Shown here: positions 13,898-47,376 of the stretch, piece by piece
Numbering within the stretch: position 1 is the stretch's first letter
How the letters are laid out: each line of letters starts with the position of its first letter
NCBI RefSeq assembly: GCF_016888135.1
Contig: NZ_JACSWB010000244.1
Location: 1 to 64,000 of the forward strand
Source of the DNA: Leptolyngbya sp. CCY15150
Lineage (GTDB): Bacteria; Cyanobacteriota; Cyanobacteriia; RECH01
Reading direction: 5' to 3'
DNA: 64,000 bases
Notes under the pieces: model-generated
Told to the model about the DNA's origin: nothing
What the model saw: only the letters and a program-made list of their open reading frames with translations
Databases searched by the model: none
Position numbers and translations under genes: made by a program

Positions 13898-13965
13898 AGC
13901 TACTCATTGATACGACCCTCCTGTGGTTTATCCATGACGATCCCAATCTCAGCGATCGCTCCTAG
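13894..13965 (+). pseudogene. vapC (PIN-domain toxin) N-terminal stub, 23 codons
   Basis: ATG 13894 overlaps the antitoxin stop. The 23 residues (MKLLIDTTLLWFIHDDPNLS and three more) are clearly the start of a VapC PIN domain, with the first catalytic Asp (LLIDT) present, but the frame ends at TAG 13963-13965. The other three acidic residues are missing. The stop lies within a 7-base duplication flanking a dispersed repeat, and would also be present without the repeat, so loss of the rest of vapC was not simply caused by that insertion. Confidence 0.8.
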
Positions 13966-14071
13966 TACTCTGAGGCGTAAGTAAACCGCCTATATGCTGA
14001 GGCAGGAAACCTTGTGTGTCCTGGATTCCTTTTCGTTTTTCTGTCTTCGTTCTTCTGTTTTGCACTCCTAG
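13959..14071 (-). repeat. Dispersed repeat, copy A (about 100 bp plus flanking duplication)
   Basis: Core about 13966-14064, flanked by CTCCTAG on both sides (13959-13965 and 14065-14071). On the minus strand it reads TGCAAAACAGAAGAACGAAG, about two 14-bp units (GACAGAAGAACGAA), then CCAGGACACACAAGG, a small hairpin (CTGCCT with AGGCGG, one wobble), and ends CAGAGTA. It is the same family as the repeats near 31.0, 42.2 and 47.3 kb. It lies between the stops of the vapC stub and crr6, and both stops fall in the flanking duplication. Confidence 0.85.
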
Positions 14072-14547
14072 GCGGTTCCCACGAGGTCAAAAAAGGCATC
14101 ATCGAGGTCATACCCGAGGGTGAGCAGCATGGCCTTAATTTTGGTGCGTCCGTCGATACCATTCTGACGCAGCCAGTGCAGCAAGGTGAACGTCTTGCCC
14201 ATGACAAACAGCTCCAGCGCCTCAGGGTTGTACTGAATGCCCTCCGTACGGCTGAATTGATGGGGCACCAGCATGGCGGTATAGCGGCTCAGCTCCGTGC
14301 CCCAATCTAGCCACAAGGGTAGCCAAGGATATTCGGCATCCAGCCGCAGAAACCAGAGGCGCACCTCAGGAATTTCGGAAAGTTCACGGGGGTCGTCGGG
14401 TTCGCGGGGATAGTCTAGGTCAAACTGAATCGCTTGCCCAGCTTGAGCGATCGCTTCTTGAACCTTGAGGGTAGACAACACCTTGGTGGCGGGCGAGAGG
14501 TTGAGGGTGTGGATATGCTCAGCCTGAAGGGAAATGGTAAGAGTCAT
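14068..14547 (-). CDS. crr6: CRR6 family NDH-1 complex assembly factor
   Basis: A 159-residue protein matching the chlororespiratory reduction 6 (DUF1817) family, an assembly factor for the photosynthetic NDH-1 complex that acts with the NdhI subunit in cyanobacteria and chloroplasts. The diagnostic block is FDLDYPREPDDPRELSEIPE followed by VRLWFLRLDAEYPWLPLWLD, then MLVPHQFS, GIQYNPEALELFVM and the C-terminal GYDLDDAFFDLV. The length is normal. It is a soluble protein with no signal or membrane segment. The stop codon lies in the direct duplication flanking repeat copy A, but the conserved C-terminus appears complete. The next gene upstream on this strand is a separate signalling pair. Confidence 0.92.
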   Translation of the reverse strand: MTLTISLQAEHIHTLNLSPATKVLSTLKVQEAIAQAGQAIQFDLDYPREPDDPRELSEIPEVRLWFLRLDAEYPWLPLWLDWGTELSRYTAMLVPHQFSRTEGIQYNPEALELFVMGKTFTLLHWLRQNGIDGRTKIKAMLLTLGYDLDDAFFDLVGTA

Positions 14548-29692: not shown

Positions 29693-30913
29693 ATGGACTT
29701 GCGTGAAAGCTTGGGAATGGCGGTCAAAACCCTCACAGCTAACAAGCTGCGCAGTACCCTCACGATGCTAGGCATCATCATCGGCAATGCCTCCGTGATT
29801 GCCATGGTGGGCATTGGTGAAGGGGCGCAAAAATTTGTGTCAGAGGAAATTGAGAGCTTGGGCCCCAACGTGCTGTTTGTGGTGCCGGGTAACCAAGAAA
29901 CCCAACGGGCAACGTTTAATCTTCCCAAGACCCTGGTGCTGTCCGACGCAGAGGCGATCGCTGAGCAGGTGCCTTCGGTGGTGGGGGTTGCGCCGGAGTT
30001 TAACGACAGCGGCCCGGTGGTCTACCGCAATCGGTCTACCAATTCCACCATTGTCGGCACCACCCCGGGCTTTCCCCTCGTGCGCAACTTCATCGTGGGG
30101 CGAGGGCGCTTTTTCACCGATCTAGATATGCAGCGCAGTACCCAGGTGGCGGTGCTGGGCTATGAGCTAGCCGATCGCCTCTTTCAGGGAACGGAACCCG
30201 TGGGGCAGCAAATCCGCGTGAAAAACGTTAGCTTTCAGGTGATTGGTGTTTTAGAGGAAAAGGGAGCTGGGCTAGGCGGTTTGAACTATGACGAAGCGGT
30301 GCTGGTACCCTTGCTGACGCTATCCCGGCGCTTGGTGGGGCAGACCTCGCCCTTTGGCGTCGAGCTCACCTATATTGTGGCGGCGGTGGATCAACAGGAC
30401 AACATGGGGGCGGCTGAGTTCCAAATTGCCAACCTGCTGCGCCTGCGCCATAAAATTACCGGCGCGGATGATTTTGTGGTGCGCAGCCAAAAAGACCTGC
30501 TGGAGTTTACCGGCACGATCACCGGCGCACTGACCGCCATGCTAGCGGCGATCGCTGGTATTTCCCTCCTAGTGGGCGGTATCGGCATTATGAACATCAT
30601 GCTGGTATCGGTGCGGGAACGTACCCAGGAAATTGGTTTACGGAAAGCGATCGGTGCTTCGGGGAACGACATTTTGGTGCAGTTCATGATTGAAGCCGTG
30701 ATCCTATCAGCGGCCGGCGGTATTATTGGCACCGGTATTGGGGTGGGTGGAGCCGCGCTCCTGGGGGTGGTGACGCCGTTTCAGCCAGGTATCTCCGTGA
30801 GCGCCATTGTGATTTCAGTGGTGGTGTCGGGGAGCATTGGCCTGTTCTTTGGGGTGGTGCCGGCGCGGCAGGCAGCCCAGCTCGACCCCATTGTGGCCCT
30901 GCGCAGTGCCTAG
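29693..30913 (+). CDS. MacB-type ABC transporter permease
   Basis: A 406-residue permease of the MacB/FtsX fold: an N-terminal segment (MDLRESLGMAVKTLTANKLRSTLTMLGIII), a large periplasmic MacB_PCD domain (about 45-270) and three C-terminal membrane helices (about 282-305, 335-360, 370-392) with the FtsX signature 'VGGIGIMNIMLVSVRERTQE' and IGLRKAIGAS. The ATPase is a separate protein encoded further on, unlike E. coli MacB where both are fused. It starts five bases after the adaptor stop. Its stop codon TAG lies in the 5-base duplication flanking repeat copy B. Confidence 0.93.
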   Translation: MDLRESLGMAVKTLTANKLRSTLTMLGIIIGNASVIAMVGIGEGAQKFVSEEIESLGPNVLFVVPGNQETQRATFNLPKTLVLSDAEAIAEQVPSVVGVAPEFNDSGPVVYRNRSTNSTIVGTTPGFPLVRNFIVGRGRFFTDLDMQRSTQVAVLGYELADRLFQGTEPVGQQIRVKNVSFQVIGVLEEKGAGLGGLNYDEAVLVPLLTLSRRLVGQTSPFGVELTYIVAAVDQQDNMGAAEFQIANLLRLRHKITGADDFVVRSQKDLLEFTGTITGALTAMLAAIAGISLLVGGIGIMNIMLVSVRERTQEIGLRKAIGASGNDILVQFMIEAVILSAAGGIIGTGIGVGGAALLGVVTPFQPGISVSAIVISVVVSGSIGLFFGVVPARQAAQLDPIVALRSA

Positions 30914-31047
30914 TACTGCAAGACAGAAGAACGAAGACAGAAGAACGAAGACAGAAGAACGAAGACAGAAAAACGAAAAAGATCCAGGACACACAAGGTT
31001 TCCCGCCTCAGTCCATAGGCGGGTTACTTACGCCTCAGAGTACTAGT
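30910..31047 (+). repeat. Dispersed repeat, copy B, inside the efflux operon
   Basis: Core about 30915-31042, flanked by CTAGT at 30910-30914 and 31043-31047. It reads ACTGCAAG, three and a half 14-bp units of GACAGAAGAACGAA, then CCAGGACACACAAGG, a perfect hairpin (CCCGCCT / AGGCGGG, 8-base loop), TTACTTACGCCT and CAGAGTA. It is the longest copy because it has the most tandem units. It separates the permease stop from the ATPase start at 31083 or 31071. Confidence 0.88.
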
Positions 31048-40091: not shown

Positions 40092-42134
40092 ATGCAGACC
40101 GTTCCCTCTCCTTCCCATCATCCAGAGCCCACACTGCAAACGGTGACGGTTGAAAGTCAGCCCGTTGTGGATCCACCACGCGATCGCCGCCCATCGAGGG
40201 GAACGCTGCCCCCAGAATTAGCGGATGTGATTGCGTCCGATTCGCTCGATGAAGCCATTCGCTACAACCCAGAGGCGATCGCCAACTATTATCGGGGTCG
40301 GCCTGTGATGGTGTTTCGGCGCATTGTGGCCATTATTTTGCCGTTTTTGTCCTTTGGTTTGGGGGTTTGGTGGGATCGCTGGACAGGGCGGGTTAAAGCT
40401 GGGCAGGCAAACCGGGCTAAGCAACTGCGTATCTTGCTCACCCAGTTGGGCCCCGCCTATATCAAGGTCGGGCAAGCGCTGTCTACCCGGCCTGACTTGG
40501 TGCCGCCGTCTTACCTAGAAGAATTGACCCAATTGCAGGATCAACTGCCACCCTTTCCCAATGAAATCGCGTTTCGCTTCATTGAGGAAGAATTGGGCGA
40601 TCGCCCTGAGCAGATCTATGCAGAATTTTCCGATCATCCCGTGGCGGCGGCGTCCTTGGGTCAGGTTTACAAGGCTCGGCTGAAAACCGGGGAGCAGGTG
40701 GCCGTCAAGGTGCAGCGTCCTGGCTTGGCCCAGCGTATTACCCTAGATCTATATATCCTGCGCCAACTAGCTGCCTTGACGACCCGTATGGTGAAGGCGG
40801 TGCGCAGTGATCTCGTCGGCATCATGGACGAGTTTGGGGCGCGCATCTTTGAAGAGATGGACTACACCCAAGAAGGGCATAATGCCGAGCGCTTCGCCTC
40901 CCTCTATGGCCACATCCAGGACATTTACGTCCCGAAAATCTATTGGCCCTACACCCAGCGGCGGGTGCTGACCATGGAATGGATTAACGGCACCAAACTC
41001 ACCCAGATTGCCGAGCTAAAATCCCAGGGGATTGACGCGGCCTATTTGGTGGAAGTGGGGGTGCAGTGCTCGTTGCGGCAGTTGCTGGAGCATGGCTTTT
41101 TCCATGCCGATCCCCATCCGGGTAATCTTTTTGCCACCCCCGAAGGCAAGCTGGCCTACCTCGACTTTGGCATGATGAGCGAGGTGAAGCCCTACCAGCG
41201 CTACGGCCTGATTGAGGCGGTGGTGCATTTGGTGAACCGAGACTTTGAAGGGTTGGGGCAAGACTACATTAAGCTAGAATTTCTGTCGGAAGATACGGAT
41301 CTAACGCCGATTATTCCTGCCTTTGCCAATGTGTTCAACGATGCTCTCAGCGCCAGTGTGGCGGAGATGAACTTTAAGAGCATCACCGATCAGCTTTCTG
41401 GGTTGATGTATGAATATCCCTTCCGAGTGCCGGCCTACTACGCGCTGATTATCCGTTCTTTGGTGACCCTAGAGGGGATCGCCATTAATATTGACCCGAA
41501 TTTCAAGGTGCTCAGCAAGGCCTACCCCTACGTGGCTAGACGGTTGCTCACGGATCAATCCCCTGAGCTGCGAGCCTCGCTCCAGGATCTGCTGTTCAAA
41601 GATGGCGATTTTCGCTGGAACCGCCTGGAAAACCTGCTGCGCAATGCCCAGGATAGCCAAGACTATGATCTCAACCAGGTGTTGGATCAAACGGTGACGT
41701 TTCTGTTCTCCGATCGCGGCACCTTCATTCGCGATCGCATCTCGGCTGAAATTGTCAACGCTCTAGATGCGGCTGGACGCAATGCTGTTTACCGAGCCAC
41801 CCATTGGCTGCAGGCGCGCACGGGTCTACCCTTGGGGGCAAATGCTGCGGATGCTGCGCCAGTCCAAAGCAACCTAGAGCCCCTAGGTCGCATCCTCAAC
41901 CTGCTCAAGGAGACCCCAGGCTTTGATCCTATGACGCTGGCATCGATGGCGAGCAAGCTGGTTGTCAAACCAGAACTGCATCACATGGGTCAGCAGATTG
42001 CTACAGAACTCACCCAGCGATCGCTTGCCCGTCTCATTCGCGAACTGATGCAGGAGTCTGAGGAGTCTACGCCGCTGCGATCGCCCCAGCCCTATGCCAA
42101 ACAGCGATCGCTGCCCGCTGCCCATCGTCGGTAA
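40092..42134 (+). CDS. ABC1/UbiB (AarF) family atypical kinase
   Basis: A 680-residue UbiB-family protein-kinase-like protein. Diagnostic motifs are the KxGQ segment (GPAYIKVGQALSTRPDLVPP), the Ala-rich loop (VAAASLGQVYKARLKTGEQV) followed by the ATP-site Lys (VAVKVQRPG), catalytic HADPHPGNLF, and the metal-binding YLDFGMMSE. A hydrophobic stretch at about 72-90 (RIVAIILPFLSFGLGVWWD) may associate with the membrane. Members support quinone biosynthesis; cyanobacterial and plastid ABC1 kinases regulate prenylquinone metabolism and plastoglobules, often as ATPases rather than protein kinases. It is divergent from recN. The substrate is not determinable here. Confidence 0.93.
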   Translation: MQTVPSPSHHPEPTLQTVTVESQPVVDPPRDRRPSRGTLPPELADVIASDSLDEAIRYNPEAIANYYRGRPVMVFRRIVAIILPFLSFGLGVWWDRWTGRVKAGQANRAKQLRILLTQLGPAYIKVGQALSTRPDLVPPSYLEELTQLQDQLPPFPNEIAFRFIEEELGDRPEQIYAEFSDHPVAAASLGQVYKARLKTGEQVAVKVQRPGLAQRITLDLYILRQLAALTTRMVKAVRSDLVGIMDEFGARIFEEMDYTQEGHNAERFASLYGHIQDIYVPKIYWPYTQRRVLTMEWINGTKLTQIAELKSQGIDAAYLVEVGVQCSLRQLLEHGFFHADPHPGNLFATPEGKLAYLDFGMMSEVKPYQRYGLIEAVVHLVNRDFEGLGQDYIKLEFLSEDTDLTPIIPAFANVFNDALSASVAEMNFKSITDQLSGLMYEYPFRVPAYYALIIRSLVTLEGIAINIDPNFKVLSKAYPYVARRLLTDQSPELRASLQDLLFKDGDFRWNRLENLLRNAQDSQDYDLNQVLDQTVTFLFSDRGTFIRDRISAEIVNALDAAGRNAVYRATHWLQARTGLPLGANAADAAPVQSNLEPLGRILNLLKETPGFDPMTLASMASKLVVKPELHHMGQQIATELTQRSLARLIRELMQESEESTPLRSPQPYAKQRSLPAAHRR

Positions 42135-42177
42135 GCCTCTCTAACGAGTCGGATCTCTAGCTAACGAAGGCTGACTG

Positions 42178-42306
42178 GGCCGACTCGTACTCTGGCATAA
42201 GTACCCCGCCTAGGCGGAAAACCCTATGTGTCCTGGATTCCTTTGCGGTTTTCTGTCTTCGTTCTTCTATCTTCGTTCTTCTGTCTTGCGATACTAGGCC
42301 GACTCG
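42178..42306 (-). repeat. Dispersed repeat, copy C, with 10-bp target duplication
   Basis: Core about 42188-42296, flanked by GGCCGACTCG at 42178-42187 and 42297-42306. On the minus strand it reads TAGTATCGCAAG, three 14-bp units (GACAGAAGAACGAA with changes), CCAGGACACATAGGG, a loopless palindrome CCGCCTAGGCGG, and ends CCAGAGTA. Its first three bases on the minus strand (TAG) are the stop codon of the gene ending at 42294. Confidence 0.88.
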
Positions 42307-42785
42307 TCGGAGGCTGGTGAATCCTTGGGGATCACCTTGGCCTGAGGGCTGCTCCCCTCTAGCTTGTCTTTGTTTTCCTGAAGATTTTTCTCTAGTTCTT
42401 GAATCTGGTCGCGCCGGGCCTCCAGCTCCAGGGTGCGACGACCCAGTTCCTGATCCCGCAAGGTTAGCGACTGCCGCCATTGCTCAGCCCGCTCAGCCTC
42501 TTCTTGCAAGCTGGTGGGGCTGAGTCCCTTGGTGAGATACTCACTGATCATCTGCAGCACCCAAGGTAGGGCATCTTCTAGATGCTGAATGTCTTGGGTG
42601 TCTGATAAATCGACCATGACTAGGCTTTGGGGAGCATAGCCTAGGTCGGCAAGCGTTTTATCCAGGACAATCTCCGTGGGATTGGGCAAAACCACCCAGG
42701 TATACTCAGTTTTTTGCACTGCCAACAGGCGCAACATGGCGTGCTCGGTGATCTCGTCTTGTTGAACCTGGGCTAGGTGTCGCAT
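42294..42785 (-). CDS. Conserved-looking protein with C-terminal coiled coil, tail altered by repeat
   Basis: A 163-residue soluble protein of unknown function. Residues 1-75 look globular (MRHLAQVQQDEITEHAMLRL; VVLPNPTEIVLDKTLADLGY); about 80-140 form a charged coiled coil (EEAERAEQWRQSLTLRDQEL; RRDQIQELEKNLQENKDKLE). The last five residues are SDESA and the stop TAG is the first triplet of repeat copy C. Removing the repeat and one copy of its 10-bp duplication restores a frame that continues QSAFVS before TAG (complement of 42157-42159), so six C-terminal residues seem to have been lost by the insertion. I recognise no named family. Confidence 0.75.
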   Translation of the reverse strand: MRHLAQVQQDEITEHAMLRLLAVQKTEYTWVVLPNPTEIVLDKTLADLGYAPQSLVMVDLSDTQDIQHLEDALPWVLQMISEYLTKGLSPTSLQEEAERAEQWRQSLTLRDQELGRRTLELEARRDQIQELEKNLQENKDKLEGSSPQAKVIPKDSPASDESA

Positions 42786-43019: not shown

Positions 43020-46000
43020 TTAAAGACGACGGACGCGATCGCGGAGGATTTCCGCCTGTTTCTCGGCTTCTGCCAGGGAGTCGCGAGCCCCCTGCACCAC
43101 CGCCGCCGGAGCCTTGTCTACAAAGTTAGCATTGCTGAGTCGTTGGGTCAGAGAGGTGACCTCTGCCACCACTTTGCCGAGGTCTTTCTCAATTTTGGCC
43201 TTGAGCGCCTCCACATCCACCACGCCAGCCAGCGGAATCAAAACCTGCACGGTACCCACGACGCCAGCGAAGAGCTGTAGACCATCGGGAGTGGCAGCCG
43301 GCTCCACCTCCTCGGTTTGCACGGGCTCTACCGGCTCCACAGACTCCACAGACTCCACAGACTCCACCGGGGTAGCTGCAGCCGTGGGCTCTGGCTTTGC
43401 CGTGGGCATGGTGCCTGTTTCTGCCGTTTCCCGCAGTTTGAGACCAATCTGGCTCACCAACCGCGACCAAGCCTTCATCAACTCTTGGCGGCGATCGGCC
43501 TGGAGAAGATAGTGGTTCACAAACCAGATGCTATAGCCCAAACCTATGAGCTTCAAGAGCGGTGAGACGAACACCAGACCGTCGAGGGCGTCCATGACGG
43601 CTAGGAACAGGCGGGCCATTACAACTAGCAGCAGGAGAAACCCGAGGGCGATCGCTGGCTTTTGCAGTTGATTCAACTCAAATTCGCTGGCCGGCTGGTC
43701 GTTAGATGGAGTATCGGACTGACCAGCAGCTTGACCAGCGGGTTGAGTGGCCACGGTTAAGTCATCGGTTTCTACGGTCTCTGAGCTGGCAGATGGGGGA
43801 GTGACGTCGGGGGCGATCGCCTCTGGAATCGCTGACTCCTCCACGGTGACCTCAGGTATGTCCTCCGGTGAGACGTCAAGCGTGACCTCAGGCAAGCCGT
43901 CCTCTAGCTGATGTTCATCCCCAGGTTCACCAATCACCAAGCGCTCGATCCTTGCCAGGTCTTGAATGTAGGTTTCTCCTTCGGAGAGGATATGGCGTTC
44001 GTCGGCATTTTCGCTGAGCAGCAGGGCGGTAATCTTGGTGCCGGGTTTAATGCCGGCCTCCGCCCGCAGGTTGCGCACGGTGCGGATGGTGCCAATCACT
44101 AAGTCAAACTGCTGTTCTAGGGTAGGGTTGATCCACTGATTGTCGGCTTCGGGATAAATCTGCACCGCTAGAAATTCGCGATCGCCTGCCTGGGTGAGGG
44201 TATGCCAAATCTCCTCGGTGATATGGGGCATGAAGGGATGCAGCAGTTTGAGAATGCCGTCGAGCACATAGGCTAGGGTTTGCTGGGCAACCCGGCGGGA
44301 GGGCGCATCCGACTGCAGGCGGGCCTTGGCGAGTTCAATATACCAATCGCAAAAGTCGCCCCAGATGAATTCATAGAGTGCCTTAGCGGCTTCGCCCAAA
44401 CCGTAGTGGTCAATATCATGGCGGGTTTGGCGCACCACTTGATGGAATCGGGACATAATCCAGCGATCGCTAAGTTCCACCTCAGACACCTGCGGCTGTC
44501 CTAGGCTGGACGGGGTTTGCCCCTCTAGGTTCATCATCACAAACCGCGCCGCGTTCCACAGCTTATTGGTGAAGTTGCGTGAGGCTTCTACCGAGGCCGA
44601 TTCATCGGTTTTGCGATCGTATTCTAGGCGCACGTCCTGCCCAGCTCCGGCCACTTCCCGAATCAGGGTATAGCGCAGGGCATCGGTGCCGTATTTGTCG
44701 ATCAGCACCAGCGGGTCGATGCCGTTATTGGACGACTTCGACATCTTTTTGTTGTTTTCATCCCGCACGAGACCATGAATATACACGGTTTCAAAGGGCA
44801 TCGTGCCCATGAAATGCCCGGCCATCATGGTCATACGGGCGACCCAGAAAAAGATGATGTCAAACCCCGTGACTAGGGTAGTCGTGGGGTAGTAGCGTTC
44901 CAGATCCCGAGTTTCTTCAGGCCAGCCCATGGTGGAAAAGGGCCACAGTCCCGACGAGAACCAGGTATCCAGCACATCCGGATCCTGCTGCAGTTGCACA
45001 TGGGGGCCAAACAGCTCCCGAGCCTGCTGCCAGGCTTCTTCTTCGGTGCGCACCACCACAAAGGGGGTTTCATCCGTAATCTGGCCGTTCGTTTCGCTCA
45101 CCGCATACCAAGCGGGGATTTGATGCCCCCACCAAAGCTGCCGAGAAATACACCAATCTCGCAGGTTTACCAGCCAGTCGCGGTAGACCTTCGTCCAGCG
45201 ATCGGGCACGAACACCGGCGACTGTTGCTGATCTAAAAATTGCAGAGCAGCGTCAGCCATGGGGCGAATGCTGACAAACCATTGGGTAGACAGCAACGGC
45301 TCTACGGGAACCTTGCCGCGATCGCTGTAGGGGACGGCATGGCGATAGTCTTCCACGCGCACCAGGAAGCCTTCGTCATCCAATCGCTCCACCACGGCTT
45401 TACGGGCGTCAAAGCGATCCTGTCCCTGGAAGTCGCCGGCATTGGCATTCAGGGTGCCATCGGGGTTCATGATGTTGATCATGGGCAGGTCGTGGCGCTT
45501 ACCCATTTCAAAATCGTTGGGATCGTGGGCTGGGGTGACTTTGACGCAGCCTGTCCCAAAGGCCGCATCCACGTAGTCATCGGCAATGATGGGAATGTGC
45601 CGCCCCATAATCGGTAGGGTGAGCGTTCGTCCTACCAAATGCCGGTAGCGATCGTCGTTGGGATTCACCGCCACGGCCGTATCGCCCAGCATGGTTTCTG
45701 GACGGGTGGTGGCAACTTCCACAAAGCCGGAGCCATCGGTGAGCGGATAGCGAAAATGCCAGAGATGGCCGTCGATGTCCTTGTTTTCCACTTCTAGGTC
45801 AGACACGGCGGACTGGCTAGCTGGACACCAGTTCACCAAATACTTACCGCGATAAATCAGGCCCTCTTTATAGAGCCGCATGAAGGCTTCGGTCACCGCT
45901 TTGGACAACCCTTCATCCATGGTGAAGCGTTCCCGCGACCAATCCACCGACACACCCAGGCGTCGCAGTTGTCCAACAATGGTGCCGCCCGATTCCTCTT

Positions 46001-46382
46001 TCCATTGCCAAGCGCGCTGAAGGAAGGCTTCCCGACCTAGGGCTGCTCGACTGGTGCCTTCCTCGCGCAGTTGGCGTTCTAGGATGGTTTGCACGGCAAT
46101 ACTGGCATGATCCGTGCCCGGTAGCCAGAGGGTATTGCGCCCGATCATGCGGTGATAGCGCACGAAGGTATCGATCAGGCTGTGCTCGAAGGCATGGCCC
46201 ATGTGGAGACTGCCGGTGACATTGGGGGGCGGAATCACCACGCAGTAGGGATCCCCCTCGTGATCTGGGTTGGCAACGAAAACCTGGTTCGCTTCCCAGG
46301 ATGCCTGCCATTTGGATTCTGTGGCAGAAGGATCGTATTGCTTGGGGAGTTCAGACGTTAGGGCTGGAGTCGTTGCAGTCAT
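43020..46382 (-). CDS. valS: Valyl-tRNA synthetase with inserted CAAD membrane domain
   Basis: A 1120-residue class I synthetase that charges tRNA-Val. It has the HIGH-type motif ([13 protein letters not shown]), editing domain, KMSKS loop ([14 protein letters not shown]), the anticodon-binding region, and a C-terminal coiled coil (about 1032-1120; [20 protein letters not shown]). Between the last two sits about 214 extra residues (818-1031): an acidic Pro/Thr/Glu-rich linker, two membrane helices (about 910-932 and 939-960) with a short amphipathic tail, and a second linker with [13 protein letters not shown] repeats. This is the CAAD (cyanobacterial aminoacyl-tRNA synthetase appended domain), reported to anchor such synthetases to thylakoid membranes. 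Usual bacterial ValRS is 880-950 residues. Confidence 0.95.
43290..43931 (-). other. CAAD insertion within valS
   Basis: DNA for the appended domain and its two linkers (residues about 818-1031). The linker at 43330-43375 contains tandem GACTCCACA-type 9-base repeats encoding Val-Glu-Ser, a likely site of length variation between strains. Confidence 0.8.
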
Positions 46383-46894
46383 GGAGGGAAGACGGTTAGG
46401 GTGCCAACAATTCGGTACTTTTTGGTGCGAACAGTTACCTAAGATTTTGCCATGCCATTCTACATGTGGTTCAGGTTGGCAGGATGAATATCAGGATTTC
46501 TCGCTGGATTTGTATCAATGCAGGGGGCGATCGCTCCTCAACTATCCCCATTGCCCTAGGCTGGGATGACAGATTTTGCTATGAATGGGGAATACTCGTT
46601 GAACATCAAGTGTGGATTACCCTACAATTCCTCACAATTGTTAAACCTGATTCAAACTATCCGGGATGTTTCCCCTAGAGTGGTGAGCACCGTTGAGGTC
46701 TACCTATCTGGGCAACCCGCGTAGTTGGTCATCGCGATCCTTGGGATCCTTGGGACTGCCTGAGGGACGTCCGCTAATGCAGCTACCGTTCTTTGGACTA
46801 GTAGCGGAGCCTATCGATGATCGCCGCCTGTTCGTTTTCATCCAGCGTAATCCAACTTTTTTCAACCCTGCAGCTACATCAACAGGAGAATAAA
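46383..46894. other. Intergenic region between divergent valS and a small conserved gene
   Basis: 512 bases with no credible gene. The valS promoter and leader lie at the low end. AACAGGAGAATAAA just before 46895 is a good ribosome site for the small gene. No T-box-like structure was recognised. Confidence 0.45.
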
Positions 46895-47236
46895 ATGGAC
46901 TATACATTTGAACTACTGGGTATTTCCCCCATTTTGGCGTTTTTTAACCACCAGCAGGAGCAGCAGACCAAGCAGGACGGAGCTGCCTATGTGGGAGCTT
47001 ACCACTGTACCCTGGATGCTTTTTTAGATTCCCTAGAGCCGGTGCCGCGCCATCGAGGTTGGCCGATGGATGCTGTGGTGGATACGGTGATTCAGTTTTG
47101 GGTGAACAATGCAGAACAGGTGCGTCATTGGCGATCGCGCTTGGATGATGCGGGTACCCAAAGTTTGGTTGTGGCACGGGTGGCCGATGTTACCTCGTTG
47201 CGATCGGAATTTGAGTCGCTGCTGCGGGACGACTAG
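46895..47236 (+). CDS. Small conserved cyanobacterial-type protein of unknown function
   Basis: A 113-residue soluble protein starting MDYTFELLGISPILAFFNHQ with a good AGGAG nine bases upstream. It has a Gln-rich N-terminal part and a central AYVGAYHCTLDAFLDSLEPV, then VIQFWVNNAEQVRHWRSRLD and an acidic C-terminus (RLRSEFESLLRDD-like). The overall look is of the short uncharacterised proteins common in cyanobacteria; no catalytic motif is visible. A longer in-frame extension to 46817 is rejected because the ribosome site is inside it. The stop TAG (47234-47236) is part of the first bases of repeat copy D. Confidence 0.72.
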   Translation: MDYTFELLGISPILAFFNHQQEQQTKQDGAAYVGAYHCTLDAFLDSLEPVPRHRGWPMDAVVDTVIQFWVNNAEQVRHWRSRLDDAGTQSLVVARVADVTSLRSEFESLLRDD

Positions 47237-47353
47237 TACCGCAAGACCGAAGAACAAAAATAAAAGAACGAAAACAGAAGAACGAAAAGGAATTCAGGAA
47301 AAACTAAGGTTTCCCGCTTGAGCAAATAGATGGGGTACTGCCGCCTCATCGTA
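47234..47353 (+). repeat. Dispersed repeat, copy D (most diverged)
   Basis: About 120 bp reading TAGTACCGCAAG, three degenerate 14-bp units (GACCGAAGAACAAA and variants), GAATTCAGGAAAAACTAAGG, a weakened hairpin (CCCGCTT against AGATGGGG), CTGCCGCCTCATCGTA. The order of parts is the same as in copies A-C. A flanking duplication is not clear, so this is probably the oldest insertion. Confidence 0.8.
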
Positions 47354-47376
47354 CTCGGTTGGGGCGGTTGAAGCCA

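Follow-up and report, generated by a model that had tools for sequence, protein, structure and literature searches.

The window, a stretch of 64,000 nucleotides from Leptolyngbya sp. CCY15150 (genome G000), contains four copies (A to D) of a short dispersed repeat. Copy C lies between two convergent genes: an ABC1-kinase gene (40092-42134, plus strand) and a minus-strand gene (42294-42785) for a conserved cyanobacterial protein of 163 amino acids, which has no known function and no Pfam match and ends in SDESA. The element proper, delimited by alignment with the family consensus, occupies positions 42187-42294 (plus strand, ~108 bp), begins with GTACTCTGG and ends in GATAC (GTAC...ATAC), and has a deletion of the hairpin loop relative to that consensus. 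The TA at 42295-42296 (plus strand) belongs to a canonical right end (C-TA-G) and, with the terminal C of the element, forms the minus-strand stop codon TAG of the 163-aa gene (42296-42294). The T and A of this stop therefore lie just outside the right end, and its G is the terminal base of the element on the gene strand.

Copy C is flanked by a direct repeat. A first-pass annotation made from the letters alone had described a 10-base duplication, and GGCCGACTCG does occur at 42178-42187 and again at 42297-42306; one further base matches, which makes the repeat 11 bp long (GGCCGACTCGT; 42178-42188 and 42297-42307, plus strand). The left repeat has CTCG in place of the left CTAG of the family, and the right repeat constitutes the last codons of the gene. 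Exact 10-bp repeats at this spacing occur at ~4.5e-5 of random window positions, and the repeat is therefore not due to chance. Deletion of copy C with one repeat copy gives the frame DESA-QSAFVS-TAG, reproducing the extension originally described. Read in the direction of the gene, the flanking repeat forms the end of an array of in-phase 9-bp units, with GAGTCGGCC before the element and GAGTCGGCC CAGTCAGCC TTCGTTAGC TAG after it (42151-42187, minus strand), the last TAG being the stop of relatives without the element. Adjacent 9-mers sharing 7/9 letters are found at 0.5% of positions, so the array likely exists in its own right, and what looks like a 10-base footprint is probably a small tandem repeat older than the insertion.

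The family has the architecture GTACTCTGAGGC, GC-rich stem-loop, TTCGTTCTTCTGTC repeats and CTTGCGGTAC, with GTACTCTGAGGCGTAAGTAACCCGCCTANNNGCTGAGGCGGGAAACCTTGTGTGTCCTGGATTCCTTTTCGTTTTTCTGTCTTCGTTCTTCTGTCTTGCGGTAC as its unit. Elements consist of 105 bp plus 14-bp tandem units and are mostly 104-133 bp, the tandem unit accounting for length clusters at 105 and 119. Copies occupy at least 46 BLAST places in G000, and left ends with ≤2 mismatches number 54 in G000, 72 in G002 and 25 in G001, although all three genomes are draft assemblies and copy counts derive from retrieved loci. The listed G002 copies are 90-98% identical to the consensus, indicating recent movement in that genome. Among 291 genomes of the class, matches at E 1e-8 were found in the three genus members and two others, which belong to two other families; in one of these, G154, the tandem unit is TTCATCCTTCTGCC. 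Like miniature inverted-repeat transposable elements (MITEs), the repeat is short (<600 bp), lacks coding capacity and is dispersed in many copies, but its terminal inverted repeats are only ~4-7 bp rather than the ≥10 bp expected of MITEs, and the ends share only GTAC (CTAGTAC including the target). The window had no match in Rfam. Covariation in the hairpin was not above that of shuffles, although its 7-bp stem was paired in 88%, and RNAalifold gave a different, weak structure. Many G154 copies (L317-L350) keep the right half only, with other sequence in place of the left half. G002 also contains a second dispersed repeat family (L250-L253) with the same left end (CTAGTNCTCTGCGGCG) and a different interior with GTTCCCTGAGCGAAGTCGAAGGGAAC palindromes, which is possibly moved by the same transposase.

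The right-end TAG of all four window copies is the stop codon of a neighboring ORF. In addition to copy C, these are copy A (13965-14068, plus strand; 159-aa minus-strand ORF, 14068-14547), copy B (30913-31043, minus strand; 406-aa ABC-permease-like ORF, 29693-30913) and copy D (47236-47354, minus strand; 139-aa ORF, 46817-47236), the left end of the last being CGAG. The insertion of the copy D region (47234-47357) is shared with G002 (L256), where CGAG is also found. Because the element starts with G and ends with C, a TAG stop within a CTAG target is rebuilt at the junction, and insertion into the stop codon leaves the protein unchanged. Among 88 genus copies, 44 are at stops of adjacent long ORFs, 39 are intergenic and five lie inside called ORFs, and only 74/560 non-coding CTAG sites (13%) in 464 kb of G000 are gene stops (odds ratio, 7.4; p=7e-15). 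Enrichment persisted when orthologous sites were merged (39/77 at stops; odds ratio, 7.8; p=6e-14) and in G000 alone (odds ratio, 9.4). The background comprised non-overlapping ORF calls, made by a simple longest-ORF method, in the window and 20 stretches of 20 kb; the 88-copy sets include one misregistered duplicate of copy C, with no material effect. These ratios may be inflated, as selection may deplete insertions at intergenic CTAG sites near promoters. A cruder background, with 41 stop and 61 other CTAG sites in the window, gave little enrichment and was replaced because it counted spurious ORFs. Among G000 ORFs sampled from the window and L219-L238, TAG is used as a stop more often than the other two codons, and C-TAG is the most frequent stop context (77/339 ORFs).

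Placement is precise and oriented. Genes enter the right end of the element, which carries the tandem repeats, 34 times and the left end seven times (p=2.5e-5). Genes on the right side end at distance 0 in 36/52 cases and within 14 nt in 45/52, and the junction frame stays open over ≥100 codons at 52 ends, compared with two ends for each of the other two frames (52:2:2). Furthermore, at all 15 alignable sites the corresponding codon of the empty allele is a stop (TAG, TAA or TGA), the misregistered L078 being excluded. The stop was thus preserved at these 15 sites, and the insertions entered existing stops and created none. Stop-codon placement recurs in distant cyanobacterial families: at 6/18 sites in G154 and G189, an ORF of ≥80 codons terminates at the right-end TAG, with no such ORF in either of the other frames.

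Mobility of the repeat, asserted in the first-pass annotation, was borne out by empty alleles in relatives, sought by comparing the joined flanks of G002 copies with G000 and G001 and those of G000 copies with G001 and G002. Removal of the element and one TA yields the relatives' sequence, with CTAG, at L087, L109, L110, L111, L115, L014, L028, L163, L168 and L091. These ten clean empty sites place the insertion at TA within CTAG and give the product C-TA[GTAC...GTAC]TA-G; some empty alleles have TTAG, TCAG, CTAA or CGAG. Empty sites together with target duplication are features of MITEs, and a duplicated TA target with preference for CTAG is characteristic of IS630/Tc1-mariner elements. Duplication of TA is compatible with all clean sites. 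CTAG on both sides of copies would also be compatible with a 4-bp YTAR duplication, but the orthologous copies L012 (G000) and L076 (G001) have CTA|G at the left and TA|A at the right, and this combination of left CTAG with right CTAA agrees better with duplication of 2 bp than of 4 bp. The duplication is therefore probably 2 bp long. The 97 located copies from the three genomes have CTA at the left in 77 cases and TAG or TAA at the right in 79 and nine, respectively, with no flanking repeat longer than 5 bp; small deletions place copy C out of register in this count. A 10-bp target duplication is consequently rejected as a rule of the family, which, as the empty sites in relatives indicate, duplicates TA within CTAG and makes no 10-bp duplications. 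More generally, a direct repeat that flanks a single copy proves target duplication only if the empty sites of the family bear it out.

Site C is empty in both G001 and G002, which belong to the same genus as G000 and encode orthologues of the 163-aa protein with 89-91% identity. Relatives lacking the repeat had been predicted to end in a sequence like SDESAQSAFVS. Both instead end in DESASSS, with the tail SSS rather than QSAFVS, and their AGC-TAG stop aligns with the AGC-TAG that closes the restored QSAFVS frame of G000, in which the ESA-to-TAG interval is longer by whole 9-bp units. Neither relative stops directly after ESA, the case that had been named as refuting a clipped C terminus; both run on to the homologous TAG, and the G000 protein has therefore lost its tail relative to both. 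The loss thus stands, but its attribution to the element is at odds with the other stop sites, 15/15 of which had a stop before insertion. Similarly, the gene does stop at the junction TAG, but this codon is not the element's own, as it combines the TA of the target duplication with the terminal G of the element.

Canonical removal of copy C gives GAC GAG TCG GCC TAG TCG GCC CAG TCA GCC TTC GTT AGC TAG. In this sequence ESA is already followed by a stop codon that lies in a CTAG target, and the far-end CTAG would have had to become CTCG afterwards. The history would have begun when 9 bp at the gene's 3' end were duplicated in tandem. Substitution of G by T would then have produced GCC-TAG, both a stop and a CTAG target, into which the element would have inserted canonically, and the far end, being unprotected, would have drifted to CTCG and so recreated the look of a perfect direct repeat. 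Drift of the left end after insertion is common and directly observed: CTA is missing at the left of 20/97 copies, one and the same insertion reads CTTG, CTAG and CTCG in different orthologous copies, and L013 and L091, with CGAG and CTCG at the left, have CTAG empty sites. The right end, in turn, would be held by selection because it is usually a stop codon. Nevertheless, this history requires two substitutions at one position, and in the relatives, which run on to SSS, the junction codon is not a stop, in contrast to the other 15 sites. For that reason truncation by the insertion itself is a live possibility, and shortening of the 163-aa protein by the repeat is unproven. An earlier CTAG stop within the tandem array fits the behavior of the family slightly better, and we lean narrowly toward a stop that preceded the insertion.

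Two other histories would make the insertion the source of the stop. If only the left tetramer (CTCG in copy C) were untouched target and the right CTAG moved with the element, as in one-sided insertion modelled on IS200/IS605- or IS91-type elements, no later substitution would be needed, and the empty site would read GAGTCGGCC-GAGTCGGCC-CAGTCAGCC-TTCGTTAGC-TAG, a perfect tandem repeat encoding DESAESAQSAFVS*. L032, whose left end and G002 empty site both read CGAG, fits this scheme better than it fits the preferred history, and in many G154 copies the right end alone is retained. The CTAG empty sites of L013 and L091 and the drift among orthologous copies point the other way, as do the Y1 transposases present, which are not flanked by the element; we regard one-sided insertion as unlikely. 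The original proposal, that the element duplicated 10 bp at site C and its TAG cut off QSAFVS, draws on the perfect 10-11 bp flanking repeat and on relatives that read beyond ESA to the homologous TAG. It would leave the canonical right end of copy C (GATAC-TA-G) to chance, and with an in-phase 9-bp array already at the site, flanking repeats of >5 bp in 0/97 located copies and TA/CTAG at all ten clean empty sites, it appears quite improbable. Taken as a whole, the evidence makes it probable that the repeat is a non-autonomous, MITE-like element that inserts at TA within CTAG and rebuilds stop codons, and slightly more likely than not that copy C entered a prior stop in the canonical manner.

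The excess at stop codons may reflect either target choice or the survival of harmless or useful insertions. Selection against insertions near promoters, a useful effect at 3' ends and true targeting may each explain the excess and the orientation bias, and the bias thus poses the question of target choice versus 3'-end function. In one scenario, which applies at the level of the family and fits any history of site C, copies are retained at the 3' ends of genes in a single orientation because the element acts on mRNA ends through stability, termination or the blocking of antisense transcription, and not because stop codons are chosen by the transposase. The 34:7 orientation bias, unexpected from a palindromic CTAG target, and the better folding of the gene-sense strand than of shuffled sequences (z -2.1) are consistent with such a role, but stem covariation was not above that of shuffles, copy C has no terminator-like U-run and placement exactly at the stop codon goes beyond what 3'-end function alone requires, so that this role is tentative and somewhat unlikely. 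It is doubtful that the machinery of the element, rather than selection alone, recognizes stop-codon CTAG in a set orientation conserved across distant cyanobacterial families, for example, through coupling to translation termination, transcription or stop-specific DNA context; if so, the element would have a built-in safe harbor that keeps host proteins intact. In either case, stop codons are safe sites for landing, given the palindromic CTAG target and element ends that restore TAG, and a short mobile repeat can reach many copies in a gene-dense genome with proteins unharmed. In the distant cyanobacterium G026 (L083, L086, L092, L095 and L098), runs of GAAGAACGAAG heptamers and their reverse complement follow directly after gene stops and resemble long terminator hairpins.

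The element is MITE-like and targets CTAG/TA, which is a known kind, and we consider it a variant with a bias in stop-codon placement and orientation that was not found described; no report of stop-codon-targeting insertion elements was found in the open-access literature. IS870-type elements need CTAG to supply a stop codon. As in the present element, their CTAG target supplies a TAG stop, but that stop ends the transposase's own ORF, whereas here the stop of the host gene is rebuilt. IS630/Tc1-mariner elements (IS630, and ISY100 of Synechocystis), which are active in cyanobacteria, share the TA duplication, and IS630 prefers TA within CTAG (Tenzen and Ohtsubo 1991, as cited in PMC2170065). 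The present element differs in having no internal transposase and inverted ends of only ~4-7 bp, and no description of stop-codon or orientation bias in that group was found in the open-access literature. The IS5 family and MITEPsy1 of Pseudomonas syringae, a 100-bp non-autonomous element, have a YTAR/CTAG target (PMC5493358, PMC3189936). They resemble the present element in target and, for MITEPsy1, in short non-autonomous form, but they make a 4-bp duplication, compared with probably 2 bp here, and MITEPsy1 has 18-bp inverted ends where the element has no long ones. The BrickBuilt MITE of Porphyromonas gingivalis likewise contains a tandem repeat of variable copy number, but its unit is 23 bp and it lies 49-591 nt from genes (PMC4596501) rather than exactly in stop codons. 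Heptamer tandem repeats (STRR) and MITEs are common in cyanobacteria. One such MITE is Nezha (cited in PMC10969869); compared by description, the present heptamers differ from STRR and Nezha in that they make up half of a defined element whose ends are fixed.

Mobilization would occur in trans through an IS630/Tc1-like or IS5-like DDE transposase. No transposase gene bearing the ends of the element was found among the DDE_3, DDE_Tnp_1 or Y1_Tnp loci: DDE_3 fragments in G000 and G002 lacked these ends, and DDE_Tnp_1 loci had other inverted repeats. RAYT-like genes in G000 and G002 had no element copy nearby, unlike the arrangement in REP/RAYT systems. Candidate autonomous copies, sought from unpaired left and right ends in G002, proved to be diverged element copies or members of the second family with the same left end. 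A partial IS630-type (DDE_3) transposase gene lies at the contig edge (58-453), with no element-like ends seen near it. Elsewhere in the window, in the valyl-tRNA synthetase encoded at 43020-46382, the anticodon-binding domain and the C-terminal arm are separated by a CAAD domain.
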